A stretch of 64,000 nt of DNA, taken from assembly GCA_963965975.1 (NCBI GenBank), contig OZ014414.1:8737230-8801229 (forward strand), given 5' to 3'. A program made the position numbers and the translations under genes. The notes under the pieces are model-generated. The model did not search any database, had not been told where the DNA came from, and saw only the letters and a list, made by a program, of their open reading frames with translations. Below, piece after piece: positions 39,840-63,789 of the stretch (within the stretch, counting starts at the first letter, position 1; every line of letters begins with the position of its first letter). Origin of the DNA: Xestospongia bergquistia (lineage: Eukaryota; Porifera; Demospongiae; Haplosclerida; Petrosiidae).

Positions 39840-39899
39840 GCAAAACTGCTCTATTTTTATTGTCTACTAGTTTTGTTAGAAACAACAAACTACTTACTA

Positions 39900-42800
39900 T
39901 TACCAGAACACAAGTCTGTCTTTAATAACTTGATAACTGTCTAACGTCTTACAATACTCTTTATGTTGTCTTGATAAGTGTAGTTTCCTTATTGTAGTAT
40001 TTTTATTAAGTGATGTACATATTGTCTTGATATCATCATTGTTTAGTGAAGTATTGTAGAGATATAGTCTTGTCAATGATGTAGTTGTTTGTATTAGATC
40101 TGCTATTGTACTGGTACTAACTGAAGTGATCTGATGATTACGTCCGATGTTCAACACAGTCAATGTTTGGTTTTTAGTAAGTCCTTCACAGATATATCGG
40201 ACTCCATTATCAGTGATGTTACAGTTGTAGAGATGTAGTTCTTTTAAAGTTGTATTACTTGATAACATAGTAGATAAGTGAGTTATATCTTCATCTGTGA
40301 TATCAGTAACATTAGACAACACTAACTGTTCAAGTGTTTTATTATTAAAGAGACTATCACTGACTTGTTTGATAACACCAGTAAGTGAAGAGGACAACAG
40401 CTGTAGTATCTTTATTGTTTTATTAGTTTTTAGTATCTCTGATAATATCGATACACACTTACTGTCCAATAAAGTGTTCCATATCTCAAGTCTCCTCACT
40501 GTACACTTATTAAGATTGTTTATAATAACTGCTGTACTTTCAGGAGATGATGAGATGAGACGAATACTCCATTCTTTTCCTGTTTGTTGTTCTTTTATTA
40601 ATTTACTTATAACATCTTCACTTTGTAATACACTTGGACTAGTGAGTCTAACACTATTGATAACATCATTCCACTGAACACTTCCAGTGTCTCCTGTTAT
40701 AAAACAGAGTTAGTATATAGTATAGTACACACATAGTAATATATACTATAACACACTACAATACACTGAAGAAGAAAGGAAGCCATTACTGTTTACTGAC
40801 TACGGTTAATATGGAAACGAGGAAATAGAAGGCGGGGCTTATTATCCTGAATTTACTGAGATGTTCCTTTTAAATTACTGATTTACTTTTAGTTGGTCTA
40901 GCTACAGTAAGTCATGTTGATATATTACATCATTTTAATTTGTGAATTTATTGTAGTTATAGTAACAGATAGTCTGTTATGGCCAGCCCCTTTGCTTAGA
41001 GAGGAAGGGTTTGGTAGTCCATACTATAGTACAGTTGTCTCTTTCACTAACATTCCTGATACAACTATTGAACTTGTATCAGACAAACCACATTGTTTTT
41101 ACAGTGGGTGTGGGTGGAAATTTCTTTGATCTAAAAGTGCAGGATCTACAAACAAACATCATTAGATGTCTCATTCTGAAATATTGACTTCTTTGTCCTT
41201 TCTTGTTTTATTGTATTACAATATCTTTCATTTAGTCATGTTGATTTAACTCTGTAGAAATATTCATTGTAGTCTCACAAACCAACTTAAAAGAAAGGGG
41301 CTGAGTTAATTATGTTCCTTTTATATTAACATATAATAAGGTTTACATAAAATTAAATTCTTTTTCATCAACTGTAATATGCTACCAGATCCTTCCTCTC
41401 TAAGTGAAGGGGGCTGACCTCATCAGACTATATATGGTATTATAGTATACAATGTGGTTCTATCATAACAAGATTAGTTATAATGACATCATTATTACTT
41501 ATGTCCATTATAGGTGGAGTCAACTAAGACACAGTCAATTGTATTAATATTTGTCAGTAACAATATATGTAGTAGTTAGTCCATTTAGTTGCTATTCATG
41601 TCAATAAAGTTACATTATAAATAACAATACTTGTAGTGTATGTGTATTTTATTATATTATAATTATAATAAACTAATATAACATTCTCTAAGTCTTACCT
41701 CTTTTGTCTGACTCTTCATCCTTTGTCTCTTTATTATCATCATAGTCCTTTAATATATCATGTAATACTGGAGACTCTATATAAGATACTTATATTAAAC
41801 ATGTACATGTATATAGTGTAATATGATAACACTTAATATAAACATTTTATAGATCTTATCATAATCATAACTCTATCATATTATACTGACACTAAGGGAG
41901 TCTATAGTAAATATGGAAATTCATTTTTTATATATTATTAATTTAATTATTGTGGTTTGAGAATTATGAATATAATTTACAATATAATAATTTGTGGTTT
42001 ATAAATTTAATAATTATTAACATTATTGATTGTAAGAGATAGAATATTATCATATAAACTTACTTGGAGGAGTGGTTTCATCTTTATTATCAGCTGAACC
42101 TTTTAACTGATCTTTTAACTCTAATATTAGTGGAGACTCTAGTAGTTACAATTAAGACATATATATTAGTAACAATATTATATTATTACCTGTAGTTTCA
42201 TGTGTGGATTCTTCTTGGATGGATTTTGTTTGTGTTTCCTCAAATCCTTGATCAGTTACTGGTTTATGAACCTTTAGTATGAATGCTAGATCTAGTAACA
42301 ATGTCATATAATGAGAAGTCACTAATACCAGTTACCTTTCAAGCTCTGTTTTAACTCCTCAATCTGTTGGTCTCTCTCTCTTACTTGTAAAGTCAATGAC
42401 GTTATTATTTCTTGTAGTGTCTCTAGCTCTTTCTGTCTCTCAGCAGACACTGACAGTATATTCTTCTCAATAGCTTTATATAAAATGAGAAGAAAATTGA
42501 TCACTAATATATTATGTAAAATACTGACAACATTGGACTTGTCATTGATGTTGTATTAATTTACCTTCCTTTGTTTTCACAAGTGATGTTAAATCTTCAA
42601 TTGTTTTTTCTTTCATTTCTCTTGTTTCTATATAAAGGAATATTAATTTATTAATCAGATATATCATATAATAGACAGTTATTAAATAAAGCAATAGTTG
42701 TACACAATATACCTTCATTTTGTCTGACAATAGATGACATTTGTATAGTCATCTTTTTCCGAATGGTTTGTTCTAGTTCCAAACGACTTTTCAACTCCTT

Positions 42801-44994
42801 TGTATTCTCTTCTACAATAGTTGTAATCTCCTATATATCAATAAACAACACATGTAGTAACTGTTGTCTAATACTATTACTACCTTGTCTCTTTGATGTT
42901 TATCATAAATGTTACAATATCCAATTGTAAGTTGAATTAATCCTTTTTTCTTCATTTCTTCAAGTGTCTCCTGAGCTCTGGCAATAATTACGGTGGTTAG
43001 ACTGAGTGGAAAAAAACAAGTGACAATGATAGACCTGCCACTTCTTAAATCAAGAATCTCTACATTTCCTCCAACTGATTCAGCAATAATGTCTCGTATA
43101 TCTTGTAATGTGTAGTCAGTAGGATCCCAGTCTAAGACAAAGATGGCTGTCTCACATCGGAGAAAAGAAGGAGTTCTTGTTTCTTTGAAATTTTCATCCA
43201 GACAAAGAGAAGCTTTTGTTTTTTCACAAAATGTTTGAACATCATCTTTGTATGTTTGTATATATGTCTCTGCTTCTTTAACATCAAAACGCTCCACAAT
43301 ACCCTCAAGACAATTGATATTAATCAGTGTACAATGATTTCTCACAACTGTTAGGACTTCATCAATACATTTAGTGTTGTCTATTTCAGATTGAAGGTGA
43401 GAGTAACCATCTTCAAGAAATAGTTTCAGTTCCTCCAGAGGTGGAGGGCTTGCTTTAATAGCTTTTCGAATTTTACTAAAGGATACTGCAAACTTTCTTC
43501 TAATAGACCCAAATATAGAGTCTAACTTGCGAGGTATTTTAATACTTCTTGTCAATGAAGCTTCATCTACAGATATTAAAAATGAAACTGTTAAATGTCA
43601 CAATTAACCTGGACCTAATGTTAACTGGTTCTCAAGCAAAGATGGATTATCTAATATTTATCTAATTAATTAGTTTAATTTATTTATTATCTAATGTTTG
43701 ATATAATGAAAATACATTCTAAATTACATAATGACTACCTTTACTAACTGCAGTAACACTAGGTTGTACTTCAACAGCATTATCTTCTGATAATACTTTC
43801 TCTACAAAGAATATTTATTTTAAGAATTGTATTTATAACTAGCATTTTATACTTACCATAATCCTTTAAGATAGCATTAGCACATGGTACAGTGCTAGTA
43901 AATTTTAACAATATATTAGCAAACACCTCCAGGTGATGGTAGTTGGTATGTACAGCATGACGTACAGCTTTTAGCAGAAGAAAAATTGCTTCTTTCTCGG
44001 AATGAGATTGCGCAGTAGTTTTCACATTAAACAAAGTTGTCTGTGAAATAACTCTCTCTTCACAGAGTAATTGAGCTACTCTAATAGGATAATGAAGAGA
44101 CTGAGAGAGAGTACCATAATGACAACATAAAATGTCACTGGCATGATCTTCATGACTACTATAACTTGTCATTACTACCTCTTGAACATTAGCTACTGTT
44201 GTCTGGTCATCTGGAAATGTTTGACCTATTAACAATATGTATTAATTATAAATTATTTAATTGACCTCTTACCATATTCACTGATAATTCTCTCAGATAG
44301 TGTTTTTGTCTCTTCAAACTTGGACAGTACTGTTGCTAACATTTTCAACTTCTTATGATCTGAAGATATTGTTATATGTATAGCAGATAACAAAGTTGTC
44401 TTCTTCTCATCTGGAGATCCTTGTAATGATTCCATCTTATCAAGTGTTTCTTCACTAATGCATCTCTCACTAAATAAGAGCTGGGACACTTTTACTGGAT
44501 TAATCAGACACTGTAACAGTGTATCATTATGACACTGAAGAATAGCAGTTGCTTCATTAGCTGGGGACTGAGAGTCCATTCCTATAATAAGAACAGTACA
44601 CAATCTATTAACAAACTAGTAATATAACATTTATAACATGATGTATATGTAAAAGGTTCTTGTACTTACTAGTAGGAAGACTACTGGATTTTCTCAACAT
44701 TTGCTCATACTCGTGGGCAACAGTGATTTCTTCAATGACTTCCTTCCTCAAAGCATCTATAACTTGTCTTCTAGTAGCATCAGGTTTGGTATCTAACCAC
44801 AACTCAAACATTTTTGTTGTTTTGTATGTGGAGTCATCTGGTAGCTTGTGAATATCTTCTAACTTCTTAGCGTTCAGTTTCAACTGAATTCCCAACTGAT
44901 ACCATTTACTACCAATACGAATATGTTCACATAATTCATCAAGAGTAGGTTTCTCTTCTAGAATCTCCTCAAAAGATAGGTTTCTTGTAGCCAT
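39900..44994 (-). CDS. Death / CARD-like x2 / coiled-coil / LRR protein, gene A (1038 aa, intact)
   Basis: Exons in coding order: 44994-44670, 44581-44273, 44225-43857, 43801-43739, 43566-42884, 42830-42713, 42627-42565, 42473-42336, 42291-42190, 42138-42064, 41776-41699, 40693-39900; 3117 nt in frame. Residues 1-108 form a Death domain (LDELCEHIRIGSKWYQLG, FELWLDTKPDATRRQVIDAL). Residues 109-334 hold two related helical CARD-like modules (SQLLFSERCIS; AQLLCEERVIS). Residues 356-583 are an unassigned domain with FVLDWDPTDYTL and SIIVTCFFPLSL. Residues 583-774 are coiled coil and acidic linker; 775-1038 are about eight LRRs of NLR/ribonuclease-inhibitor type. No NACHT domain and no Walker A motif are seen. 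A cytosolic innate-immune or death-signalling receptor or adaptor is inferred. Confidence 0.85.
40969..41431. mobile_element. MITE-like element with about 48-bp imperfect inverted ends, in gene A intron 11
   Basis: The left end ATAGTCTG...GCCCCTTTGCTTAGAGAGGAAGG is mirrored by the right end CCTTCCTCTCTAAGTGAAGGGGGC...CAGACTAT. A related copy lies at the same place in gene B (about 52416-52861). Only a left-arm trace is seen in gene C near 58794-58830. A plus-strand frame at 40914-41129 overlaps the left arm. Confidence 0.55.
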
Positions 44995-45458
44995 TGCTCT
45001 TTGTATGGTGACACACCCAGTGAATTTGGTGACCTTTTGGGTGGGCTCATCACATAAGATATAAGGACCACACCCATCTTAATAATAATCATAACATGAG
45101 TGGCAGTTAAATTTGAACTGTTAAGTATTACAAGTTAGTATTGTATTCATCTCTTGTTATCTGATCTATCCTCCAATATTATGTATCTAGTATTTTAACA
45201 TGTAACTATATTATATTACAATATTATAATGTTCTATTGTTCAGTACTGGCTGTATTAATTTATATTCAAGGACTTAATGATATGTAGATCATATTTGTT
45301 GTTATATTTGGACATATTTTCGAAGTCATCCACATACTAATAATGAGCTAACATGTGATGAGGTGAAGTAATATTACTACTATTATAATGTTATGTTAAT
45401 AATAGTTGTAGGATCTTATCATATCAAGTTATAAAACATGTCTGTTCTTTATCTGTAG
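44995..45458. other. Upstream region of LRR gene A
   Basis: No gene recognised. The gene A promoter and 5' UTR should lie in the first part, near the GGTGTGTCACC-like inverted segments at about 45005-45040. Confidence 0.4.
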
Positions 45459-47751
45459 TACCTGATCCAGTAACTGGACTCAAATCTCTTCTCTATGGAC
45501 CTGATAATATTTTCTTTTATTGGAATAACTCTAGAGGAACATCATAGAGTCTTGCAGACGATTGATGCATACATTATGGAAGATCAGGTATGTGGGTGTG
45601 GTTTACATGTAAGCACTTTATGTCTCTGACAATATACATAATGTTAATCTATTTTTCATCTATCTATTGTTATATTCTATTTATAGCCCAACCAACCAAC
45701 GTAGTGAAAACTCATCCTCAGTATCTGGCTATCCTCTTCAACTTATTAACTAATCTCTCCGCCTACACTAATTATAACCTGTACATTCGATGGACCTACA
45801 AGTCTATAGAGTACAATGGAACAGAATATACAGCTGGAGTCTTTGAGAGTTTAAGTATCACTGAATTAACAAGATGTAATATTTACTGACAATTATTTAA
45901 TATACTATACATTTAGTACATGTATACATGTATTTTAGATAAACATTTATAAATACTTTATCATATTAAAATATGTCCTAATATGGTAACAATGTTCTGT
46001 CTTATTTAATTATATTATAATTGTATCTTTCTCTCTCTCCCCTCCCATTCAGGTTTATTGATCGAGGTGAATTTGGTGAAGTATACCAAGGTACAGCTGT
46101 AGATATCCTAGGTCAAGGTACAGGCCCCACCCCTGTGGCTGTTAAGAAAATGAGGAAAGGCAGTACAGCTGAGGAACAGGAAGTTCCTGTTGGAAGCAGC
46201 TCTAATGAGGTCATTATATTTTGTTTATATTCTCTCAGTTCATTTCTCTCAATTACAGTAACTTCAATCATCAAAACATTGTTAAGGTGTTAGGGGTGTG
46301 TCTTGATAATGATCCTATTTATATCATCATGGAATTAATGCCAGGGGGTGATTTATTGAAATTCCTAAGAGAAGCTAAACGAGAACATGTGAGTGTCACA
46401 TGATAAATAAAATCACTTGATCTAATTATACACTCTATTAAAACTATCTATCAATTTATTCTTTAGTCTACTAGTCTATCTGTCCATTCATTTATCCTAA
46501 TGTCCATTTGACCGTCTATCCATTCATCCATACACATACCATTCATCCATATATCCATCCATTCATTTCTTTTATAGGGTCCTCCATTATTAACTTTAGC
46601 AGAACTTGTTCAGATAGCATTAGATGTTGCTCAAGGTTGTCGATACTTGGAGCAAACTCATTTTATTCACAGAGATCTTGCTGCACGCAATTGTCTTGTG
46701 TCAAGTAAAGGAGCAGATCGTGTTGTAAAGATTGGTGACTTTGGTCTTGCTAAAGATCTGTATAGCCAAGTCTACTACCAAGTTAGAGAGAGAGAGAGAG
46801 ACTGTAATTTATATCTCCTTCAAGGGAAGTTTACAATTGAGTCAGATATTTGGTAAGTGAAAGTTGAAGTGGTTATTATAAAGATATCATTATTGTAAAG
46901 GTCTTATGGAGTACTTCTGTGGGAGATTATGACATTTGGTAATCAACCATATCCTGGTAGAATAAACCAAGAGGTTCTCTAGTTTGTAACGGGAGGAGGA
47001 AGATTAGATAAACCAGAGAACTGTCCAGGAAGATTGTATGTTGAATGGATGGACATATGAATGTATGGATGGATCAATAAACTAATAGATGAATGTTTAG
47101 ATATGAGACAAATGAATGGACAGTTAAATAATTCAATGGATCAATGGACAAATGAATGGATCAATAGATTAATATATATTAATAAATGTATTAATCATTA
47201 GATGATATCAGTATATTTATGACTAGATATTAAATGAATGAATAGGAAAGTGTATATATTGATAGTCTGACTGACTTAGTTCTAATATTATAATTGTTAA
47301 TTCTATTATTTGTAGATACAAACTAATGTTGATGTGTTGGAAGAGGTATGCCAGTGAGCGACCTCACTTTGCACAAATAGTAGATGTTATAGCATCATTC
47401 TTAGAACATGTTAACAATAAAAGAGATAGTTATTATTCTGATGATGATGATGAAGATTTAGAAGAGGTCCTACAACGAAGAAACTCTAGACCTTCAAGAA
47501 CATCATCTGTACGATCAGGTAAGACCATTTATTCATCTATCAACTCATGTATCTGTCCATCTACAACACCATATGTCCATTTCCCCTCATCCATTTGTCC
47601 ATAAATCCATGTACTCATACAAGTATCCATCCATTCATTTTTCCTTCCATTTAGTCCTTTCATTTGTCCATTCTTTCATTTATTCATCCATTTTATAGGT
47701 ATTGTAAATCTAGCTCGTCAAGGTAGTATGCGAATTCATAACAGTTTCTGA
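45459..47751 (+). pseudogene. Receptor tyrosine kinase pseudogene with ectodomain and N-lobe pieces, copy 2
   Basis: Pieces in order: 45459-45590 (LLYGPDNIFFYWNNSRGT, then a stop) and about 45688-45886 (FN3-like, SAYTNYNLYIRW). From 46053 the N-lobe reads GEFGEVYQG and PVAVKKM, followed at 46259 by [12 protein letters not shown]. The intact catalytic loop and DFG piece is at 46578-46781 ([11 protein letters not shown]). The exon with the APE motif is deleted, joining TATATCT to CCTTCAAGGG near 46820. A TAG interrupts EVLQF. The tail is at about 47315-47520 and 47699-47751. No transmembrane exon is found. The ectodomain resembles the ROS1-like group. Non-functional. Confidence 0.88.
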
Positions 47752-47999
47752 TAGAAAACAGTTTCTGATAGAAAAGAACTCGACTCACATCAGAATCATA
47801 CTGGAATCATAAAAATCATATTGTAAATCTAGATACTAGATTAGATCATATTATTATTAGAAAATATTATTATTTAAGATTATATAAAAATTATATACAA
47901 AACTAATATAAAGAGTATCAATAATAATACTAGATTCTAAATTCTAGAATAAGAATATAATAAGTAAAAGATTAATGATAAGTGATGATATTGACAGAT

Positions 48000-48900
48000 G
48001 AATTAGTTGAGATCTTTGAATGAGGAGGGAAGAGAATTCTACAGGGAGATAGCACTGGGAAGGAAGGAGTTGAGGGTAGCAGAAGATCTGGAGAAGGGCA
48101 GATTCAGATTAAATGGATGGAAAGAACGTAAATTATAAGAGGACTGATTTTGAAATGAAAATGAGCCAGCAGGAATGTAGAGATTACTATAAATAAACTT
48201 GTATAATAAGTGTGAATGAATAATTAGAAATAGTGACAGAGAGAAGGATTAGTTCAAGATTCAAGGAGGATGGGATTACTTTGAATGAAAGTGAAGATTT
48301 AATATAAACAACTATTCCACCACCATGGTGGGAACAATCTTTATGAACACAGTGATAATTAGGTATAGAGATCTCATTGTCAGAAATGTCAGGAGACAAT
48401 CAGTACTCAGAAATACAAACAATATCAGGGAAGGAAGAGGAATATATAACAGCAAGATCATCTAGTTTAGGTAGAAGACTTCTAGTATTGAAGTGTAAGA
48501 TTTTTAATGAGCTGGATTTGCAGGAGAGAGAGGTGGACTTAATAGAGTTAACAACAGAGAAGCTATGTACATTAAGTCTTGAAGATATGGAGGATGATGG
48601 ACAATTTGGTTGAGAGGAAGAGGTTGCTGAGGAGTGACATATTTCAGAGGAAGTTGATTTACAAGAGGTGAGGGAAGAAAGCGGAGGTTTTTGAGGATGA
48701 GAGTAAGGATGAGGATTGATGTTGGTGGGGAAATGTTGTGGAAGAGAGGATGATGGAGGATGATGCATGGGATGATATTGAGGAGATGGTACACAGGAAA
48801 AAAGTATTGAATACATTCATTGTTTTATTGATGTAAATGAGATGGTTTATACTACAATTACAATAGTAAATATTCCATTCATTTTGTACCATGTTTTTTT
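48000..48900 (-). mobile_element. LINE remnant copy 2: endonuclease start joined to ORF2 C-terminus
   Basis: The coding strand reads an AP-endonuclease-type N-terminus (KILHFNTRSLLPKLDDL, PDIVCISEY) with one TGA in place of Trp. It continues as LSPDISDNEISIPNYH and HHGGGIVVYIKSSL. At about 48200 this jumps to the last ORF2 segment (NLRSFHPFNLNLPFSRSSATLNSF, LWNSLPSSF). The reverse transcriptase is deleted. Confidence 0.75.
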
Positions 48901-49079
48901 TTACATAATATATATATGATGGATTTATTACAATTGTTGTATTAACATTGTAGATTTTACAACGTCTTTACACTGTTGTATTAATGTTGTAAATTATGAA
49001 AAAGTAATATTGTAATTAAAGAAAAAACATCTGTAAATAACAAAAATGTATTTAAAATATTCCAACAGTATAAACTTAG

Positions 49080-49700
49080 TTTAGTAATGTGTGGTCAATG
49101 AGTGGAGCAAATATCAAGTTTTTCCTGTTCTCCTAAAACAGTAAAGTTCATAGAAAAGCTCATAAGTAGTGAAGGGTAACTCCCTGAGAACCCTCCAAGT
49201 GTTGAACACATAAACAACAAATCTGGCACATCATTTAGATCTATCTGTTGTCTTGATAGATCTTCTATACTTTAGGACACACTGACGTAGTAGCAAAGGT
49301 CTAATGTTAGGATTTGTGATACATGAAGTCTCCATGTCTAAAAGTTATTTTATTCACTCCATGAGTTAATTTGATCATTGCTAGAAAACTAAATAAAATT
49401 ATTACTAATGAAGTATTTTTTTCATAAGGTCAAGTTTGTTTTGTATCTATCTATTCATCCATTCAGTATCCTTACCAGGATAAACATTAAAGAGATAGAC
49501 ATTGATGGTATGATAATTAGGAAAGCGCTAGACTACCAACTATAATGTATTGTTGATGTAGTACTAATAAATTAATTGGGAAAGTGCTAGACTACCAACT
49601 ATAATGTATTGTTGATGTAGTACTAATAAATGTAAAATGATTAATACTGATCATGTAGACTTACATGTATTGCACTACTAACACACTTACTATTAGCAGT
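49080..49700. other. Spacer with a short local duplication
   Basis: About 49529-49570 and 49575-49630 repeat the same segment (GCTAGACTACCAACTATAATG). Otherwise nothing is recognised. Confidence 0.5.
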
Positions 49701-49713
49701 TCACATATGTACC

Positions 49714-50031
49714 ATGGCTACTAAATACCATCAACTATCAATTTGTCCTAAGACCTTACTTAGCTCCTAAATCAGTACAGTCCAATTTTATGATACCTGG
49801 AGTTCTGTTTCATCCAAGAGTTGATTTGGACAAGTCTATAAATTGCTAGAGAAATTGAACAAAGTTAATTCTAATGAAGGACTTTTTGATAATTACGAAG
49901 AGGTACAGTTTGCTTTGTGGAATGATGATTGTCTACCTATTGAGAGTATATACATTGTACAGGTTCAGTTTGATAATGTAGCAATAGACATCCTACATCA
50001 TGTTATGACTGAATGGGGAAAAACAGTGTAG
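49714..50031 (+). pseudogene. Unidentified duplicated fragment, copy 2
   Basis: As at 38966-39281: an ATG frame that stops early and a second frame (EKLNKVNSNEGLFDNYEE ... HVMTEWGKTV) open to a TAG at 50029-50031. Here the Trp codon that is a stop in copy 1 is intact. It may be the last exon of a lost gene. Family not recognised. Confidence 0.4.
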
Positions 50032-50389
50032 GGATATCTATAAAGAGCTGAAGAGTTAAATTTACATGAAGAGTCTCTGATCAATTATCTGTGTAAGATA
50101 ATGAAATCACACATAAAAATTAGAATAAACTTATTGAGAGAGGAGGAGGAGCTATTGATGGATGGTTGAGAATTGGAGGAGGAGCTATAGAGGGAGGGTT
50201 GAGAGTTTGAGAAGGAGTACTGTAAGGAGGGTGGAATTTTAGAGAAGGAGTGGTAGAGAAAGAGTGAAGAATTGGAGGTAATGATAATGTAATGATAGAG
50301 GAAGATGAAGAAAGCTGGAATAATAGTAGACATTGGTTTACAGGTATTTTCAAGTTTTACTAGCCTATCTTTTAGCTGAGTAATATCAC

Positions 50390-50560
50390 TTGTTAAGACA
50401 AATACTGAGGAGACTAGAGACTTCACACAGTAAGGACAGATACTGAGGAGACTAGAGACTTCACACAGTAAGGACAGATACTGAGGAGACTAGAGACTTC
50501 ACACAGTAAGGACAGATAATGAGGAGAATAGAGACTTCACACAGTAAGGACAAATGAAGG
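50390..50560. repeat. Four tandem copies of a 38-bp unit inside the LINE PHD end
   Basis: The unit GACAGATACTGAGGAGACTA...CACAGTAAG is repeated. Because 38 is not a multiple of three, each copy shifts the frame, so the expansion inactivated the LINE ORF1. Confidence 0.85.
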
Positions 50561-50693
50561 GATAGTTAGCAGCAACAGTGGGAGAGATGTTAACACATTC
50601 ACTATGAGACCAACAAGACTCACATTCTATCATGTGGCCAGTGTCTTCTTGGGTCAAACAGACACACGTCACAACATCTTCTTTATCATTTCC

Positions 50694-50720
50694 AGGACCT
50701 GGATTTAATTCAATGTTGCC
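50694..50720 (-). other. 2A-like ribosome-skipping motif
   Basis: Codes GNIELNPGP directly after a run of leucines. The 2A consensus is D(V/I)ExNPGP; here the first Asp is Asn. The PHD finger follows it. Confidence 0.75.
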
Positions 50721-52415
50721 AGAGAGTAGAAGAAGGAGAAGAAGTAGAACTATAGCTTGGTACGTTGATGAACTACTACGATGGAGGTGAGAAAAAGACT
50801 TTGTCAGATATCTACGATGTCTGGGTCGATTTGGTACAAAAACAAGACCATACATGTAACAGGTGATGTGTAGACTTCTTTCCTCGAGAGACAGTTTCTG
50901 AGAGAAGGCAGCGTACGAGTGGAAAGACAGAAAAAAGAAGCACATCAGAAATAGCTGACCGCGCGCCATTTTGATACTAGAATATTGTCATCTCTGAATA
51001 TAAGACAGGTCATGTTGACTTCTTTAGGTGGTCTAAAATATAATGCAAGTACATTTCTCATTGCTTGAGGTCTTCTCTCGCCACAAAGGGTTAAAAATAA
51101 TACTCCGCCCACAAATAATAATTATAGCGACCAGCTGTTAGAGAGACAAAAAAGTGCGACGTTAGAGAAGTAAGTGTCAAGCAAAACTGCTCTATTTTTA
51201 TTGTCTACTAGTTTTGTTAGAGAAATAAATTGTTTATAAAAGAAGAGAAAAAGAAATCATGAGTAATTTAAAGATAAAATAAAAGTGAGCGAGAAGACAA
51301 ATTAAGAATAAACAACAAACTACTTACTATTACACGAACACAAGTCTGTCTTCAATAACTTGATAACTGTCTAACTTCTTACAATACTCTTTATATTGTC
51401 TTGATAAGTATAGTTCCCTTATTGTAGTATTTTTATTAAGTGATGTACATATTGTCTTGATATCATCATTGTTTAGTGAAGTATTGTAGAGATATAGTCT
51501 TGTCAATGATGTAGTTGTTTGTATTAGATCTGCTATTGTACTGGTACTAACTGAAGTGATCTGAGGATTATGTCCGATGTCCAAAATAGTCAATGTTTGG
51601 TTTTTAGTAAGCCCTTCACGAATATATCGGACTCCATCATCAGTGATGTTACAGTTGTAGAGTTCTAGTTCTTTTAAAGTTGTATTACTTGATAACATAG
51701 TAGATAAGTGAGTTATATCTTCATCTGTGATATCAGTAACATGAGACAACACTAACTGTTCAAGTGTTTTATTATTAAAGAGACCATCACTGACTTGTTT
51801 GATAACACCAGTAAGTGAAGAGGAACGCAGCCGTAGTCTCTTTATTGTTTTATTAGTTTTTAGTATCTCTGATAATATCGATACACACTTACTGTCTAAT
51901 AAAGTGTTCTCTATACCAAGTCTCCACACTGTACACTTATTGAGATTGTTTATAATAACTGCAGTACTTTCAGGAGATGATGAGTAGAGATCAATACTCC
52001 ATTCTTTTCCTGTTTGTTGTTCTTTTATTAATTTACTTATAACATCTTCACTTTGTAATACACTTGGACTAGTGAGTCTAACAATATTGTCATCATCATA
52101 TCTACTCCACTGAACACTTCCAGTGTCTCCTGTTATAAAACAGAGTTAGTATATAATATAGTACACACATAGTAATATATACTATAACACACTACAATAT
52201 ACAGACAATACACTGAAGAAGAAAGGAAGCCATTACTGTTTACTGACTATGGTTATTATGGCAACGAGCAAATAGGAGGCGGGGCTTATTATCCTGAATT
52301 TACTGAGATGTTCCTTTTAAATTACTGATTTACTTTTAGTTGGTCTAGCTACAGTAAGTCATGTTAATATATTACATCATTTTAATTTGTGAATTTATTG
52401 TAGTTATAGTAACAG

Positions 52416-52862
52416 ATAGTCTAGTATGGCCAGCCCCTTTGCTTAGAGAGGAAGGGTTTGATAGTTCATACTATAGTAGTTGTCTTAACATTCCTGATAC
52501 AACTATTGAACTTGTATCAGACAAACCACATTGTTTTTACAGTGGGTGTGGGTGGAAATTTCTTTGATCTAAAAGTGCAGGATCTACAAACAAACATCAT
52601 TAGATGTTTCATTATGAAATATTGACTTCTTTGTCCTTTCTTATTTTATTGTATTACAATATCTTTCATTTAATCACTTAACTCTGTAAAAATATTCATT
52701 GTAGTCTCACAAACCAACTTAAGAGAAAGGGGCTGAGTTAATTATGTTCCTTTTATATTAACATATAATAAGGTTTACATAAAATTAAATTCTTTTTCAT
52801 CAACTGTAATATGCTACCAGATCCTTCCTCTCTAAGCGAAGGGGCTGACCTCATCAGACTAT
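52416..52862. mobile_element. MITE-like element with inverted ends, in gene B
   Basis: Same element and position as 40969-41431 (left arm GCCCCTTTGCTTAGAGAGGAAGG, right arm CCTTCCTCTCTAAGCGAAGGGGC), inherited with the segmental duplication. Confidence 0.5.
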
Positions 52863-53987
52863 ATATGGTATTATAGTATACAATGTGGTTCTATCATAAC
52901 AAGAATAGTTATAATGACATCATTATTACTTATGTCCATTATAGGTGGAGTCAACTAAGACACAGTCAAGTGTATTAATATTTGTCAGTAACAATAATAT
53001 ATGTAGTAGTTAGTCCATTTTAGTTGTTATTCATGTCAATAAAGTTACACTATAAATAACAATACTTGTAGTATATGTGTATTTTATTATATTATAATTA
53101 TAATAAACTAATATAACATTCTCTAAGTCTTACCTCTTTTGTCTGACTCTTCATCCTTTGTCTCTTTATCATCATCATAGTCCTTTAATATATCATGTAA
53201 TACTGGAGATTCTATATAAGATACTTATATTAAACATGTACATGTATATAGTGTAATATGATAACACTTAATATAAACATTTTATAGATCTTATCATAAT
53301 CATAACTCTATCATATTATACTGACACTAAGGGAGTGTATAGTAAATATGGAAATTCATTTTTTATATATTATGAATTTAATTATTGTGGTTTGAGAATT
53401 ATGAATATAATTTACACTATAATAATTTGTGGTTTATAAATTTAATAATTATTAACATTATTGATTGTAAGAGATAGAATATTATCATATAAACTTACTT
53501 GGAGGAGTGGTTTCATCTTTATTATCAGCTGAACCTTTTAACTGATCTTTTAACTCTAATATTAGTGGAGACTCTAGTAGTCACAATTAAGACATATATA
53601 TTATTAACAATATTATATTATTACCTGTAGTTTCATGTGTGGACTCTTCTTGGATGGATTTTGTTTGTGTTTCCTCAACTCCTTGATCAGTTACTGGTTT
53701 ACGAACATTTGGTATGAATGCTAGATCTAGTAACAATGTCATATAATGAGAAGTCACTAATACCAGTTACCTTTCAAGGTCTGTTTTAACTCCTCAATCT
53801 GTTGGTCTCTCTCTCTTACTTGTAAAGTCAATGACGTTATTATTTCTTGTAGTGTCTCTAGTTCTTTCTGTCTCTCAGTAGACACTGACAGTATATTCTT
53901 CTCAATAGCTTTATATAAAATGAGAAGAAAATTGATCACTAATATATTATGTAAAATACTGACAACATTGGACACATAGATTGCATT

Positions 53988-54396
53988 CAGGGTTTCATTT
54001 AGAAAAATGGACCAGGGGGGGTCAAAATAATACTTAGAGAAAATTTAGGGGGCGAAAGGACTGCGCGCAACAGAGTGCCCTCTAGGGGAGTCTGGAGGCA
54101 TGCCCCCAGAAAATTTTTGAGTTTTAGACCCTCTGAGATCGCTTGTGGCACATTTTCAGACCATTTGTGGTTTTCAAACGACATAGAATAGAAAGAGTAG
54201 AAGAATAGCTATTTAGATTAAAAATTGTATATTCTCCTTGTGTTTAGCCTAAGGTTATATAATATTGTATATTACTTGTGTTGAGTTTCAGTCCTGTATT
54301 CATTACATCCAATTACCCCTTGAAAAAAATGGCTAACCTAATTTCCAGGGGGGGGGGGGAAGGCAAATGCCCCCTCCTAAGCTAAATGAAACCCTG
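53988..54396. mobile_element. 409-bp hAT-like MITE inserted in a gene B intron
   Basis: The ends are CAGGGTTTCATTTAG and CTAAATGAAACCCTG, a perfect 15-bp inverted repeat with the CAGGG start usual for hAT elements. Genes A and C lack it at the same site. It is flanked by a 28-bp direct duplication of intron sequence (53946-53973 and 54397-54424) plus 14 extra bases on the left. This is longer than the 8-bp duplication expected for hAT. It contains poly-G tracts and no transposase. Confidence 0.75.
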
Positions 54397-55205
54397 ATTA
54401 TGTAAAATACTGACAACATTGGACTTGTCATTGATGTTGTATTAATTTACCTTCCTTTGTTTTCACAAGTGATGTTAAATCTTCAATTGTCTTTTCTTTC
54501 ATTTCTCTTGTTTCTATATAAAGGAACATTAAGTTATTAATCATATATATCATATAATAGATAGTTATTAAATAAAACAATAGTTGTACACAATATACCT
54601 TCATTTTGTCTGACAATAGATGACATTTGTATAGTCATCTTTTTCCGGATGGTTTGTTCTAGTTCCAGACGACTTCTTAACTCCTTTGTGTTCTCTTCTA
54701 CAATAGTTCTAACCTCCTATATATCAATAAACAACACATGTAGTAACTGTTGTCTAATACTATTATTACCTTGTCTCTTTGATATTTATCATAAACGGTA
54801 CAATATCCAACTGTAAGTTGAATTAATCCTTTTTTCTTGACTTCTTCAAGTGTCTCCTGAGCTCTTGCAATAATTGATGTGGTTAGACTGAGTGGAAAAA
54901 AACAGGTGACAATGATAGACCTGCCCTCTCTAATGACACGAATCTCCACATTTCCTTCAACTGATTCAGCAATAATATCTCGTATATCTTGTAATGTGTA
55001 GTTGGTAGGATCCCAGTCTAAGACAAAAATGGCTGTCTCACATTTGAGAAGAGAACGACTTTTGCTTTCTTTGAAGGTTTCTTCCAGACAAAGAGAAGCT
55101 TTTGTTTCCTTACAAAATGACTGAACAATATTTTTGTATGCTTGTATATGTGTCTCAGCTTCTTCAATATTCATCCATACATCTATCCATTCATTCCTTT
55201 TATAG

Positions 55206-56430
<1,225 letters not shown>

Positions 56431-56639
56431 AGAGTATGCTCCATAGAAAGAACAACTTGTCAGAATCATACTGGAATCATATTATTATTAGAAAATATTA
56501 TTATTTAAGATTATATACAAAATTATATACAAAACTAATATAAAGAGTATCAATAACAATTAAAATAAGTAAAGGATTAATGATAAGTGATGATATTGAC
56601 AGAATAAAAATAAATTAATAAATAAATATTAACAATATA

Positions 56640-57350
56640 ACTCTACAATAAATAAGAAATATTTTGCTTAAACTGACTTATAGGGTTAAGATCTTTTAAT
56701 GAAGATGGAAGGGAATTCTACAGGGAGATAGCACTGGGAAAGAAGGAGCCGAGGGTAGCAGAAGATCTGGAGAAGAGCAGATTCAGATTAAATGGATGGA
56801 AAGAATGTAAATTATAAGAGGATTGATTTTGAAATGAAAAAGAGCCAGCAGGAATGTAGAGATTACTATAAATAAACTTGTACAATAGAACAAGCTTGGA
56901 TGTTGTTCTGTGAGAGGATAGAGAAGGAAGATTAAAGAGTCACAGAACAATCTTTACGAACACAGCAATAATTAGGTATAGAGATCTCATTGTCAGTAAT
57001 GTTAGGAGACAACCAACACTCAGAAATACAAACAATATCAGGGAAGGAAGAGGAATATATAAGAGCAAGATCATCTAGTTTAGGTAGAAGACTTCTAGTA
57101 TTGAAGTGTTAGATTTTTAATGAGATTTTTAATGAGCTGGATTTGCAGGAGAGAGAGTTGGACTTAATACAGTTAGCAACAGAGAAGCTAGACTGTTTAT
57201 TAAGTCTTGAAGATATGGAGGATGATGGACAATTTGGTTGAGAGGAAAGGTTGCTGGAAATGTGTTAACATCTCTCCCGATGTTGCTGCTAATTATCCAG
57301 TGTGGAAAGACAGAAAAAAGAAGCACATCAGAAACAGCTGACCGCGCGCC
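56640..57350 (-). mobile_element. LINE remnant copy 3, with inverted segment
   Basis: Equivalent to the 48000-50980 material but much reduced: ORF2 C-terminal region (about 56690-56880), part of the endonuclease region (about 56960-57240), then a junction to the 5' end of ORF1 (about 57300-57350). At about 57256-57299 a short segment of the PHD region is inverted relative to copy 2. Confidence 0.65.
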
Positions 57351-57717
57351 ATTTTGATACTAGAATATTTTTATCTCTGCATATAAGACAGGTCATGTTG
57401 ACTTCTTTAGGTGGTCTAAAATGTAATGCAAGTACATTTCTCATTGCTTGAGGTCTTCTCTCGCCATAAAGGGTTAAAAATAATACTCCGCCCACAAATA
57501 ATAATTACAGGCGCCAAGTGACCAGCTGTTAGAGAGACAAAAAAGTGCGATGTTAGAGAAGTAAGTGTCAAGCAAAACTGCTCTATTTTTATTGTCTACT
57601 AGTTTTGTTAGAGAAATAAATTGTTAATAAACGAAGAGAAAAGAAAGTTAAAAGAAATTTAAAGATAAAATAAAAGTGAGCGAGAAGACAAATTAAGAAT
57701 AAACAACAAACTACTTA

Positions 57718-60700
57718 CTATTGCCAAAACTGAAGTCTGTCTTTAATAACTTGATAATTGTCTAACTTCTTACAATACTCTTCATCTTGTCTTGATAAGT
57801 GTAGTTTCCTTATTGTAGTATTTTTATTAAGTGATGTACATATTGTCTTGATATCATCATTGTTCAGTGAAGTATAGTCAAGATATAGTTCTGTCAATGA
57901 TGTAGTTGTTTGTATTAGATCTGCTATTGTACTGGTACTAACTGAAGTGATCTGAGGATTATGACTGATGTTCAAAGTAGTCAATGTTTGGTTTTTAGTA
58001 AGTCCTTCACAGATATATCGGACTCCATTATCAGTGATGTTACAGTTGTTGAGATATAGTACTTTTAAAGTTGTATTACTTGATAACATAGTAGATAAGT
58101 GAGTTATATCTTCATCTGTGATATCAGTAACATCTAACAACCATAACTGTTCAAGTGTTTTATTATTAAAGAGACTATCACTGACTTGTTTGATACCACC
58201 AGTAAGTGAAGAGGCGTTCAGCACTAGTTCCTTTATTGTTTTATTAGTTTTTAGTATCTTTGATAATATCGATACACACATACTGTCCAATGAAGTGTTC
58301 TCTATATGAAGTCTCTCCACTGTACACTTATTAAGATTGTTTATAATAACTGCAGTACTTTCAGGAGATGATGAGAAGAGATAAATACTCCATTCTTTTC
58401 CTGTTTGTTGTTCTTTTATTAATTTACTTATAACATCTTCACTTTCTAATACACTTGGACTAGTGAGCCATACTCTATTGATATCATCTCTCCACTGAAC
58501 ACTTTCAGTGTCTCCTGTTATAAAACAGAGTTAGTATATAGTATAGTACACACATAGTAATATATACTATAACACAGATAATACACTGAAGAAGAAAGGA
58601 AGGCATTACTGATTACTGAATGTGGTTACTATGGCAACGAATTGCAGGAGGCGTGGCTTATGGTTAAATTTCAAAATTTGAGGTCTGGTGTGTTCTATGT
58701 TTTAATTTACGTTCTACTGGTTATAGAGGAACAATTCTATCACTACATATATAGAACACTACTATATAATTCTGGTATTCATACATCAACTTAGTCTGGT
58801 GAGATCAACCCCTTTGCTTTGAGAGGAATTGTAGCTTATCAATCTTTTCCTGACAAAACACATTTTTATAGTTTAGTGTGACAATAAACTGTTTTGATCT
58901 AATACAAGATCTGAAAATGAATTATTCTTTAGACATTTCCTGTTTGAATATGTCCTGTTTGTTGTTTCTTAACATGTATACTTTTATTGTTAAGTGAAAT
59001 GTTATCACAGCATTTCTCTTCAATCAAAGGGAAAAAAGCTTTGCCTTTTAGTGTGTCTACTGGGTACTTTGCACTCTAATTGACAAAAGGTCCAATACTT
59101 TCCAACTTCTTAGTAAAAGTTAGTGATTCTCCAATGACAGCTATGGTGCTAGTATTTTTAGTTCACGCTCAATGTATCGATAAAGATAACTGCTAAAAGT
59201 TAGTAAAACTGTCATAACTTTCCAAAGAAGTATTTTGGCAAAAATTCTCACTTTAAAAAGTTGGAAAATGTCATAAGCTGTATGTAGGAGGTTTTTATTG
59301 AATTCTCAAGTCTTTGCTAAAAGCTGTGCTTTTTTCAAAATGTTTTTCAGACTTTAATAACAATAATTAAGAGGTTAATAACAATACTTGTAGTGTATGT
59401 GTATTTTAATATATCATGTAATATTGGAGACTCTATATAAGATACTTATATTAAACATGTACATGTATATAGTGTAATATGATAACACTTAATATAAACA
59501 TTTTATAGATCTTATCATAATCATAACTCTATCATATTATACTGACACTAAGGGAGTCTATAGTAAATATGGAAATTCATTTTTTATATATTATGAATTT
59601 AATTATTGTGGTTTGAGAATTATGAATATAATTTACACTATAATAATTTGTGGTTTATAAATTTAATAATTATTAACATTATTGATTGTAAGAGATAGAA
59701 TATAAACTTACTTGGAGGAGTGGTTTCATCTTTATTATCAGCTGAACCTTTTAACTGATCTTTTAACTCTAATATTAGTGGAGACTCTAGTAGTCACAAT
59801 TAAGACATATATATTAGTAACAATATTATATTATTACCTGTAGTTTCATGTGTGGACTCTTCTTGGATGGATTTTGTTTGTGTTTCCTCAAGTCCTTGAT
59901 AAGTTACTGGTTTACGAACCTTTGATATGAATGCTAGATCTAGTAACAATGTCATATAATGAGAAGTCACTAATACCAGTTACCTTTCAAGCTCTGTTTT
60001 AACTCCTTAATCTGTTGGTCTCTCTCCCTTAGCTGTAAGGTCAATGACGTTACTATTTCTTGTAGTGTCTCTAGCTCTTTCAGTCTCTCAGCAGACACTG
60101 ACAGTATATTCATCTCAATAGCTTTATATAAAATGAGAAGAAAATTGATCACTAATATATTATGTAAAATACTGACAACATTGGACTTGTCATTGATGTT
60201 GTATTAATTTACCTTCCTTTGTTTTCACAAGTGATGTTAAATCTTCAATTGTCTTTTCTTTCATTTCTCTTGTTTCTATATAAAGGAACATTAAGTTATT
60301 AATCAGATATATCATATAATAGACAGTTATTAAATAAAACAATAGTGTACACAATATACCTTCATTTTGTCTGATAATAGATGACATTTGTATAGTCATC
60401 TTTTTCCGCATGGTTTGTTCTAGTTCCAGACAACTTCTTAACTCCTTTGTGTTCTCTTCTATAATAGTTCTAATCTCCTATATATCAATAAACAACACAT
60501 GTAGTAACTGTTGTCTAATACTATTACTACCTTGTCTCTTTGATGTTTGTCATAAATGGTACAATGACCAACTGTAAGTTGAAGTAATCCTCTCCTCTTC
60601 ACTGATTCAAGAGTCTCCTGAGTTTTGGTAATAAGTAGAGTTGTCAGATTGAGTGGGAAGGTACAGGTCACAATGATGGAGTTACCCTCTGTCACAATAA

Positions 60701-62830
60701 TTACTCTAACTCTTTTATTTAATCTTTCAAAGGCAACTGACAAAAGGTTTTTAATGTCAGTCAATGAAGTCTTGTCAGGATCCCATTCAAGAACAAATTT
60801 AGCAGTCTCACATTTGAGAGGAGAACTGGTTGACACCACAAGAGATTCCTGGAGACTTAAACGTGTTGTTACTGTGGAACAAAACTCCTCAATAGCATCT
60901 TCATAAGCTTTAATATGAACATAAACTTCTTCAACATTAATTTCGTCAGCAATGGCTTTTAAAATCTCAATGTCAATCAATGTACACTTAACTTTGACAA
61001 TTTCTAGCACATCATCAAGTGTATTAATGCTGAGACTTGCTAATTGAGGGGTGAGGTCAGGATAACAATCTCGGAGAAATGTTTTCAACTTTTCAGAAGT
61101 TATAGATGTCTCTTTAATAACATTTCGAATTTTGTTGAAAGTTGTTCCAAATTTTACTCTCATTGAATTAAATTTGGGACTCATACTTCTTGGAACAAAA
61201 ATCCCATCTATGATATAGTAAATATTATTAAATGAATATAAAGGATATTACCTTGAATAGACTCATTGTTTATATGAGATAGACTATGAGTAGATCCTAT
61301 AATAAGAGATATAATATGATAATAATATTAATATTAACACAATATACCTTCACTGAGTAGTAGTGGTTTAGTGTGTATTGTTCTATCTTCAAATGATTGC
61401 TCTATAATTTTAATAATATTTTAAAATTATATTATGTAATAAACTTAATAACTTACTATAGTTAGTCATTATGACATCACCTAATTTAATATTCTCAGTG
61501 AATTTTTGAAGTACACTGGCAAACACTTTTAGGTTACGATAGTTGCTATGGACAGCACCACGTACAGCTTTTAATAGTGACATTAATGGCTGAGTAGATA
61601 TAGTTAGTGTATCATCTGAAATGACACCTTCTCCATGAAGTAGTTCTGCTACTTGAATTGGATTTTGAAGAGATTGAGAGAGAGTACCATAATGACAACG
61701 TAAAATGTCACTGGCATGGACTGTAATAAAATAAATAAAATTTATAAATACATTTCAGTTAGTCAACAGTATATTATCATGTACCATTATAATCAGATGT
61801 TAGTTCTAAATCATGTCTCTCCTTCTTCCTTTTTAAGTCATCATCTGATATCTCTTTATCTTCTAGTGGTTGCTTTCTACTTGGATTTGACATATCCCAT
61901 TTTGTCATCACATTAGATTCCTATAACACCATAGTAACACTTAGTTGTATAATATAGTACAATAACCTTATGAATAGTGCCCTCTGATGTGATACGATTT
62001 TCAGATTCTGTAACCTCCATTGAATCATTATGACTTGTTCTTCCTATCTCTTGAGCAATATCAGTCTTCATCCGGTCATATATCTGAGCTGTAGATATTC
62101 AAGAGAAAACACCACTATTAATCCAGATAATATGAAAATATTTTCTCACTATATTCACTGATAATTTTCTCAGATAGAATTTTTGTCTCTTCAAACTTGG
62201 ACAGTACTGTTGCTAACACTTTCAAATTCTTGTGATCTGAAGATATTGCTATATGTATAGCAGATAACAGAGTTGTCTTCTTCTCATCCAGAATACCCTC
62301 CATTGTCTCCATCTTATCAAGTGTACCTTCATTGATACATCTATCACTAAATAAGAGCTGAGACACTTTTACAGGATTAATCATAGACTGTGATAATGTA
62401 TCATTATGATGATAAAGAATAACAATGGCTTCAGTAGCTAAAGAGTCCATTCCTGTAATAAAAATAATGACACATACTATCTTATCAATCAGATTCACTC
62501 ACCAGTAGAGATACAACATTTTCTTAATAGGACCAGCTCATACTCATGAGCAATAGTGATTTCTTCAATGACTTCCTTCTTCAAAGCATCTATAACTTGT
62601 CTTCTGGTAGCATTAGGGTTGGTATCTAACCACAACTCAAACATTCTTGATGTTTTGTAAGTAGAATCTTCTGGTAACTTTTGAATATCATCTCTTAACT
62701 TCTTAGGATCCAGTTTTAACAGGATTCCTAACTGATACCATTTACCACCAATACGAATATGTTCACATAATTCATCAAGAGCTGGTTTCTCTTCTAATAA
62801 TTTCTCAAAAGAAAGATTTATTGCAGCCAT
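57718..62830 (-). CDS. Death / CARD-like x2 / coiled-coil / LRR protein, gene C (1073 aa if one damaged exon is skipped)
   Basis: Exons in coding order: 62830-62503, 62452-62150, 62088-61967, 61920-61785, 61720-61457, 61401-61348, 61296-61252, 61207-60531, 60477-60360, 60275-60213, 60121-59984, 59939-59838, 59786-59712, 58514-57718; 3222 nt in frame. Death domain at 1-109 (LDELCEHIRIGGKWYQLG), first CARD-like module at 110-210, charged linker (exons 3-4, absent from gene A), second CARD-like module (about 297-384), middle domain (about 418-643, FVLEWDPDKTSL, SIIVTCTFPLNL), coiled coil and LRRs. The acidic-linker exon equivalent to gene A exon 11 has lost its donor (59406-59432); skipping it keeps the frame. 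The N-terminal half is clearly diverged from gene A while the coiled-coil exons are nearly identical. Confidence 0.75.
59406..59432 (-). pseudogene. Truncated acidic-linker exon in gene C
   Basis: The acceptor side and the first nine codons (SPILHDILK) match gene A exon 11 (41776-41699). About 100 bp holding the rest of the exon and its GT donor are deleted. Read through, the frame stops 19 codons later. Confidence 0.75.
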
Positions 62831-63019
62831 TGCTTCTTTGTCGGAGAGAAGCGGATAAAGACAAGAATGTTTCCACAAGAATGGATATGTTATATATTCA
62901 TAGCAACTAAATAAACAGTAGGCGGAGTAACAATTACTAATTATACTGTTAAAAGTAAAAAGCAAGTGATGTCTTGTGTAGTAAACAAACTCAAAAGTAA
63001 GTGATTAGATCTAGTGTAG

Positions 63020-63454
63020 TCATTCTTCTATTTTAATTGACTTTATCTTAATGCAACTTGAGCAGATCCATGCAGCAGTTGGTGGATTTTCAATATTCAC
63101 ACATGTCCTACAAAATAGATGGTAATATTATATGTTAATCTTAGTCTGTATATTGTTACCAAATCTAGTATATATAATATACCATTTAATATACTTACCA
63201 GTGAAACCATCTGCAGCAGTCATCACATTCTATCATGTTTCTGTGTGTTGTAGATAGTTGGCAATGAGAGCACATCCATTCAAGACGTTTGGTAGTCACT
63301 GTGGTTTTGTGTTGATGATAGTATGGTTGAAGTGTAATGCCACCTTACCTAGTTGTTGTAATACTTCCCATACTTCATTTGTCATGTATTCCTGAATGTT
63401 AGAGATATCAAAGTCAATTATCTCATCAGGTAGGCTGTCCATTTTCTTTTTCAT
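63020..63454 (-). CDS. PHD-finger protein or C-terminal PHD of the adjacent protease
   Basis: Exons in coding order: 63454-63349, 63298-63199, 63107-63020, joining in frame to 98 codons if the ATG at 63454 is used. The first exon codes an acidic helix-like segment (SLPDEIIDFDISNIQEYM). The second and third form a PHD finger: WMCSHC, MIECDDCCRWFHW, TCVN, WICSSC. PHD fingers bind zinc and often histone tails. An in-frame stop lies just upstream of the ATG. Splicing to the upstream protease exons is possible but was not resolved. Confidence 0.65.
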
Positions 63455-63789
63455 TTGTACCAGTGTTAATTTGCATTGTTTGTTGTTCCATTAATGATCT
63501 TATCTGCTCTATCTTTGGTACATAACAATATTAGAGTATCTATAAAGGGAAAGTAATTGTTATTTTATTGTTTAATGTTAGATTTAGTCATACAGATATG
63601 TGGCTTTCTTTGTCATATCCAATCTTGTGTCATTGTTTAATTGTTTTTCAATTTCTTCTTTTTCAGTGTTCTTTGGCGTTGCTAGTCTAACTGATGGTTT
63701 TTTGGTCTTTTTGTTAAAACATTTACCAAGTCTGTTGGTGTCACCTATCATGAAATTTTATGATATTGATACTGAATTAAAAAACTTAC

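Follow-up and report, generated by a model that had tools for sequence, protein, structure and literature searches.

The window analyzed here is a 64,000-nucleotide stretch of the genome of the sponge Xestospongia bergquistia (assembly GCA_963965975.1, contig OZ014414.1, positions 8,737,230 to 8,801,229; C4:8737230-8801229 in our numbering of a genome of 146 Mb in 21 contigs). It carries three related genes, here called A, B and C, each with a terminal exon of leucine-rich repeats (LRRs). We consider it likely that they belong to a family of Death/TRADD-N-like/LRR receptors without a NACHT domain, in which the LRR scaffold evolves in concert and selection keeps the recognition residues diverse. 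The evidence comprises the gene family itself, its architecture as judged from sequence and models, an excess of amino-acid change specific to the LRR beta strands, homogenization of the LRR exon, an exon content unlinked to the flanks, sites close to linkage equilibrium and a patch that was recently replaced. At the sequence level, these observations suggest that a sponge diversifies the putative ligand-binding surface in a large family of intracellular receptors with the scaffold held fixed.

Variation and selection on the predicted ligand face

The LRR exons lie within open frames at 39900-40709 (A), 51330-52145 (B) and 57718-58530 (C), and their starts were set by the acceptor AACAG/GA found in all three genes:

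39900..40693, minus strand: terminal LRR exon of gene A; open frame with acceptor and nine strand windows; the stop codon ends the exon
51330..52129, minus strand: terminal LRR exon of gene B; open frame, 90% identity to A; identical copy at C4:8862554
57718..58514, minus strand: terminal LRR exon of gene C; open frame, 86% identity to A

The exon of A gave a Pfam match to LRR_6 (E 2e-7) and has an identical copy at C4:8851121. An initial annotation, made from the sequence of the window, had placed the three exons at these coordinates with a gapless alignment over the repeats and had quoted their strand strings, all of which we recovered in the translations. It had also counted roughly 25 of about 36 variable sites on the strands. 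On recounting from codon 45 onward (225 positions), 39 amino-acid sites vary among A, B and C; the x positions of the strand motif xxLxLxx, 40 of the 225, hold 24 of them (hypergeometric P=3.6e-12), and positions x3, x5 and x7 (24 of the 225) hold 19 (P=9.7e-13). The concentration thus stands with slightly different counts, and it exceeds what had been claimed, because the seven-residue strand windows make up 56 of the 225 positions (25%) and not a third of each repeat. Silent-only differences occur at eight codons, none of which is an x position.

The LRR class is ribonuclease-inhibitor type as judged by profile and predicted fold. Profile matches were obtained to ribonuclease inhibitor (E 2.6e-34) and NLRP3 (E ∼4e-21), and a Foldseek search with the AlphaFold model of the exon (pLDDT 93) retrieved NLRP3 (8.7e-11) as well as NLRP9 and NOD2. 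In ribonuclease-inhibitor-type repeats, x3, x5 and x7 face the concave side. When the variable sites were mapped on the model, as the initial annotation had advised, the nine x3-x7 windows overlapped nine strands of the model, and six windows lay entirely within them; in the last three repeats, x7 falls one or two residues beyond the end of the model strand.

A genome search with the LRR exon returned at least 145 matches, a lower bound because 143 of 459 candidates were scored, and a 1.2-Mb interval, C4:8.43-9.64 Mb, contains 60 of those listed, including one partial match. We took 91 LRR exons (90 loci and C), dropped L033 (C4:9488453) and L039 (C4:9499268), in which an early stop cuts the frame to 245 amino acids, and merged two exact duplicates, leaving 87 copies. 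Most counts refer to the 77 of these whose proportion of amino-acid-changing differences (pN) to A is below 0.12. Over all pairs of the 77, the ratio of pN to the silent proportion (pS) was 2.34 (95% interval 1.72-3.36) at x3/x5/x7 (27 codons; pN 0.388), 1.30 (0.63-2.55) at x2/x8 (18 codons), 0.20 (0.11-0.35) at the two strand leucines (18 codons) and 0.70 (0.51-0.94) at the remaining 199 codons. At x3/x5/x7, pN exceeded pS in 2,000 of 2,000 site bootstraps. Mean amino-acid diversity was 0.65 at x3/x5/x7, 0.32 at x2/x8, 0.04 at the leucines and 0.10 elsewhere; the strand residues are enriched in tyrosine (7.3-fold), arginine (6.0-fold) and tryptophan (5.9-fold), and the 77 copies display 73 distinct 27-residue faces.

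It should be noted that selection was measured by pairwise counts and a site bootstrap, since near linkage equilibrium breaks the single-tree assumption on which phylogenetic site models (M7/M8) depend. Because the Nei-Gojobori method (NG86) averages multi-step paths and thereby inflates pS at codons hit more than once, we added a silent-only measure, restricted to pairs that share both the encoded amino acid and the first two codon bases. By this measure, silent change was 0.049 (0.029-0.075) at x3/x5/x7, 0.079 (0.044-0.116) at the interleaved leucines and 0.037 (0.030-0.047) elsewhere. The strand x codons thus show no significant concentration of silent change, and their pN/pS is above that of the rest, so that neither finding which the initial annotation had named as contrary to its reading was obtained. 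The strand leucines are conserved. These results support the view, suggested by that annotation from A, B and C, that the predicted ligand face is under diversifying selection.

The same pattern was found in 51 related protein records (of 120 listed proteins; P0045-P0120, at least 275 amino acids, mostly from a second subfamily), with a mean diversity of 0.55 at x3/x5/x7 vs 0.12 elsewhere (P 2.7e-12). At least one record (P0048) exactly matches a copy in the genome studied; for another (P0051), no full-length copy above 86% was found in this genome, so the 51 records do not all come from this assembly.

Homogenization of the LRR exon

The LRR exon was compared with the upstream TRADD-N-like exon of the same genes, which in the window lies as follows:

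42872..43572, minus strand: TRADD-N-like exon of gene A; predicted helical bundle followed by beta-alpha-beta-beta-alpha-beta; limits approximate
54698..55237, minus strand: shortened TRADD-N-like exon of gene B; open frame of 179 amino acids; homology to A stops at 55170
60459..61247, minus strand: TRADD-N-like exon of gene C; open frame; 47% identity to that of A

Two comparisons used 44 and 54 hand-picked sequences, the identity of the gene C exon being taken from the 54. In 16 genes (the upstream exon of L026 was left out), median silent divergence was 0.041 in the LRR background vs 0.394 in the TRADD-N-like exon, the LRR value being the lower in 119 of 120 pairs; strand pN in the same genes was 0.366. 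Consistently, LRR identity to A is confined to 84-92% while the upstream exon spans 36-93% (rho 0.20, p 0.2, identities to A only; 44 of 59 listed LRR genes could be paired, or 43 without A). The TRADD-N-like exon itself is under purifying selection, with a median ratio of nonsynonymous to synonymous divergence (dN/dS) of 0.31 (17 copies, of 30 loci). The contrast between the exons indicates that the LRR exon has been homogenized or replaced across otherwise old genes, with the strands escaping. Strand pN is thus not accelerated against gene age, being about equal to the silent divergence of the other exon; measured against the homogenized exon, strand change far exceeds silent change.

The near equality of strand pN and upstream silent divergence is also what relaxed constraint would give, that is, strand x positions free to vary in a repertoire without a recognition role. 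We regard this as highly improbable, given that pN exceeded pS at the strands in every bootstrap, which relaxation cannot yield, and that the residues are strongly biased to tyrosine, arginine and tryptophan.

Probable exchange between copies

Flanks were analyzed in 28 distinct copies having 1.5-kb flanks. A conserved intron stretch borders the LRR exon:

40694..40850, minus strand: conserved intron stretch beside the LRR exon of gene A; similar across most of the 28 copies compared; limits approximate

In 193 of the 378 pairs, upstream homology stops 125-175 bp from the exon; one copy (L025) departs from the conserved stretch much earlier than the others. The comparison with flanks gives the strongest evidence of exchange. 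In 25 pairs, 1 kb or more of the upstream flank agrees with a mismatch of at most 2.5% (median 1.9%). The exons of these pairs are as different as those of the other 353 (concave pN 0.362 and 0.365, respectively; background 0.030 in both), and the nine pairs similar in both flanks give 0.375 and 0.031, with one of the nine (L007/L020) showing no strand difference. In the pair L010/L021 (C4:8449269 and C4:8457556), both 1.4-kb flanks agree within 1.5%, yet 43 exon codons differ and 15 amino-acid changes fall at x3/x5/x7. Exon content therefore moves independently of both flanks. Linkage within the exon is low: the squared correlation (r2) is 0.11 for sites 1-3 bp apart and 0.014-0.021 past 10 bp (null 0.013), and all four gametes occur in 220 of 378 strictly biallelic background site pairs, where free shuffling expects 200. 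In a longest-run tract test, 111 of 2926 pairs had p<0.01 vs 29 expected.

These data bear on a history of birth and death alone, in which an LRR cassette spread recently into older genes and then changed by point mutation under positive selection, with no continuing exchange. The sharp upstream homology limits fit such a spread, a star-like history would likewise give low linkage, and few individual exchange tracts are significant. Tree-like divergence would not, however, leave pairs with ∼2% flank divergence as different in their exons as any others, nor make the strictly biallelic background sites as incompatible as under free shuffling, and the patch described below, in which ten codons changed against five other substitutions in 8.6 kb, is equally at odds with it. 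Birth and death alone therefore appears unlikely. With the exon homogenized and exchanged apart from its flanks, strand diversity is better understood as kept and reshuffled variation than as fast substitution in each gene.

A second alternative is targeted hypermutation of the strand codons by a diversity-generating or deaminase-like process. The codon-precise variation reaching many residues would suit it, as would the finding that flank-similar pairs nearly always differ at the strands: 39 of 40 pairs (of 54 with at least 500 bp of upstream homology) have between 9 and 20 strand codons that differ. On the other hand, the exon background of the closest flank pairs also differs as in other copies, which points to exchange of whole exon content, and the interleaved leucine codons show just slightly raised silent change. 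The four closest exon pairs (L008/L009, L047/L049, L052/L057 and L007/L020) have none of their 26 differences at x3/x5/x7 and two at x2/x8, when 40% of the differences between random copies fall at x3/x5/x7, though as a hot-spot test this is biased, since choosing pairs by exon similarity excludes exchanged exons by construction. In the fifth closest pair, C and L058, x3/x5/x7 account for 5 of the 10 changed codons, and in the sixth (L027/L050) for 12 of 23. Six near-identical pairs of a genome copy and a protein record (P0043, P0100, P0103, P0030, P0004 and P0118), likewise picked by exon similarity, show 35 differing sites, three of them at x3/x5/x7 and one of them probably a start-codon effect; another ten records have either no difference or only a change of V/L to M at the first residue, read as the start codon. 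A mutation hot spot at the strands is the less likely explanation, and we consider directed hypermutation very unlikely, also in view of the patch in gene C.

A recently replaced patch in gene C

The window block 39903-63794 (C4:8777132 on) is duplicated at C4:8851121 on. The second occurrence of A and of B, 73,989 bp away, matches the first without a single difference over 3.8 kb, and that of C lies 77,380 bp away. The block either was duplicated very recently or represents two haplotypes set in series. Between gene C and its copy at C4:8872333, 22 substitutions were counted in an alignment of 8,626 bp, most of them in one patch of the LRR exon:

58214..58317, minus strand: 104-bp patch in gene C relative to its duplicate (L058/L091), holding 17 of the 22 substitutions

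The other five all lie at 63340-63729. The 17 patch substitutions alter ten codons, every one with an amino-acid change, and at eight of the ten codons both states are found in other copies at the corresponding site, as would be expected of templated transfer and less so of hypermutation. The patch stands whether the block represents a duplication or haplotypes.

Several observations weigh against concerted evolution with exchange as the explanation of the family. No donor of the patch was found among 85 other copies or in the genome (40 of 147 candidates scored); the best genome match among these scored candidates reaches 93% over 131 bp, and the most unusual variants of C, at codons 84 and 91, sit in two different other copies. 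Ten codons changed together with no donor found among the candidates scored would also be what hypermutation produces. Only the pair C/L058 is significant at 0.05 in the longest-run test after global correction, and r2 among background sites alone (0.022-0.025) is somewhat over the null. Silent divergence of the exon is slightly higher in flank-similar pairs than in other pairs (0.048 vs 0.034, p 6e-5), a difference that is unexplained; the value of 0.048 is above the flank mismatch, as import from the family pool would give. Finally, NG86 pS is 0.166 at strand codons vs 0.070, which we read as an effect of pathway counting since the silent-only measure shows no significant rise, its point estimate at the strands being a non-significant third above that elsewhere.

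Domain architecture

The remaining exons of genes A and C were delimited as follows:

44670..44994, minus strand: first coding exon of gene A, Death domain; Met at ∼44994; Pfam Death E 1.9e-7; donor limit approximate
44257..44578, minus strand: gene A exon with a putative Death-like helical domain; open frame 44253-44615 with splice-like ends; limits approximate
43850..44200, minus strand: gene A exon resembling the exon 44257..44578 by eye, with a putative Death-like helical domain; open frame 43780-44241; limits approximate
41690..42837, minus strand: short exons of gene A between the TRADD-N-like and LRR exons; open frames with splice-like sites, coiled-coil-like by eye; approximate, predicted splicing
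61410..63004, minus strand: three N-terminal exons of gene C; 77-82% DNA homology to A

A Death-superfamily domain at the N-terminus is present in gene A (Pfam Death) and is indicated in gene C by DNA homology, as no Pfam match of their own was found for the three N-terminal exons of C. The exons 43850..44200 and 44257..44578 of gene A gave no Pfam match above the cut-off; the latter has 150 matches across the genome. The TRADD-N-like exon of A, described from AlphaFold secondary structure (mean pLDDT 69.7), has 146 genome matches and no Foldseek match at E <= 0.001. Its matches to solved structures were weak, with E 0.002 or higher, and all to helices of coronavirus spike; they were taken as coiled-coil chance and set aside. 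By eye, no SH3 domain ahead of the LRRs was recognized in the open frames of 40700-42900. The family has a variable, LRR-bearing C-terminus. NACHT was absent from the ten stretches tested, and none of the 95 genome matches listed (103 of 156 candidates scored) lies in C4:8.43-9.64 Mb. NACHT frames among these 95 matches are grouped apart, at C4:7.97-8.33 Mb, C2:8.83-9.15 Mb and C10:4.6-6.05 Mb.

The introns had been described as nearly identical in the three genes. This holds for A and B (95.6% over 39880-42538); gene C shares only blocks with them, including 41749-43033, and no match was reported between A 40842 and 41749. Upstream of the TRADD-N-like exon of gene B, no Death exon was recognized and kinase-like exons occupy that place, so that B may be truncated or spliced differently. 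Tyrosine-kinase-like exons stand between the Death/LRR genes on the plus strand, at 46021-47604 and 55593-56290 (PK_Tyr_Ser-Thr E 9.8e-24 and 7.8e-13, respectively), and the pieces 47275-47604 and 55961-56290 are nearly one sequence.

Possible function and comparison with known systems

A, B and C would be members of a family of intracellular recognition receptors in which Death-like domains are followed by a TRADD-N-like domain, a coiled-coil-like linker and eight to nine ribonuclease-inhibitor-type LRRs, the repeats being encoded on one 3′-terminal exon; this LRR class suggests a cytosolic protein. The concave face may bind ligands, and binding could release or cluster the Death/TRADD-N part to trigger a defence or cell-death signal. 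The repertoire would be germline-encoded, in roughly one hundred or more genes. Conversion between gene copies, or a similar exchange, would homogenize the LRR scaffold and reshuffle strand variants, and diversifying selection, probably frequency-dependent, would keep many residues at x3, x5 and x7. Ligand binding, signaling, conversion as the physical process and an immune or allorecognition role are proposed here as inferences, the role in defence or allorecognition from the domains and the mode of evolution.

A bolder form of this proposal, to which we give a small chance, is that of an early-branching animal with a germline library of exchangeable paratopes, in which the 0.8-kb LRR exon is passed whole or piecewise among roughly a hundred or more divergent death-signaling genes to give individual-specific combinations. 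Exchange might then be partly somatic, as a gene C patch without a donor found would allow. If true, such a library would provide anticipatory recognition of microbes or non-self sponges without immunoglobulins or NACHT.

The initial annotation had likened the pattern to plant NLRs and to the variable lymphocyte receptors (VLRs) of jawless vertebrates. Lamprey VLRs combine a conserved LRR scaffold with a hypervariable concave face and gene-conversion-like copying, and they are somatically assembled, extracellular and of a different LRR class; the family described here, by contrast, varies in the germline and has ribonuclease-inhibitor-type repeats, so the likeness would extend to the concave-face pattern only. 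Plant NLR clusters such as RPP8 reportedly consist of duplicated paralogs with intergenic exchange and extreme polymorphism. Plant NLRs possess a nucleotide-binding domain and another LRR class, and the comparison appears to fit as an evolutionary mode.

Among animals, NLRs such as the zebrafish family and, as far as the excerpted text goes, those of Dysidea (PMC12909245) have a Death-fold N-terminus and a ribonuclease-inhibitor-type LRR C-terminus, as here; they carry NACHT, unlike the exons tested in this study. The excerpted text of PMC8195603 reports a very large lineage-specific expansion (357 proteins) of NCOA6-clade TRADD-N proteins in Amphimedon, from which the TRADD-N/Death-like/LRR architecture has been reported. 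That text gives architectures and column entropy, and not strand selection, LRR-exon homogenization or exchange. The TRADD-N domain is marked by an RRM-like fold and by a conserved serine in the beta2-beta3 turn, and TRADD-N membership of the present genes is putative (TRADD-N-like). The closest mechanistic precedent that we found may be the fungal HNWD genes het-d and het-e, in which, according to the portion of PMC1805685 available, repeats evolve in concert between genes and a few interaction-face residues per repeat are under diversifying selection. Homogenization of the recognition domain and diversifying selection at its interaction face would thus be common to both. As described in that portion, HNWD differs in being fungal, with WD40 domains, exchange of repeat units and a variable repeat number, whereas the present family is animal, has ribonuclease-inhibitor-type LRRs in constant number in aligned copies and no NACHT found. 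No description of this combination of hypervariability and exchange in a sponge was found in the open-access literature, searched mostly by title and abstract start.

The contrasts of exon with exon (0.04 vs 0.39 silent divergence) and of exon with flank provide an unusually clear natural experiment on selection and exchange. Now that variable residues, genes and cluster are all named, the long-standing question of how sponges recognize microbes and non-self tissue with specificity becomes directly testable.

Other features of the window

An open frame at 50499-50987 (minus strand) has an N-terminal hydrophobic stretch, the motif NIELNPGP, which we take to be 2A-like, and a PHD finger just below the Pfam cut-off (E 7.9e-6). 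It is probably ORF1 of a non-LTR retroelement, and a related piece lies immediately downstream of the LRR exon of gene A. Two open frames on the plus strand, at 8031-8708 and 16609-17268, gave similar weak matches to transmembrane families under the cut-off and possibly represent a second tandem family.

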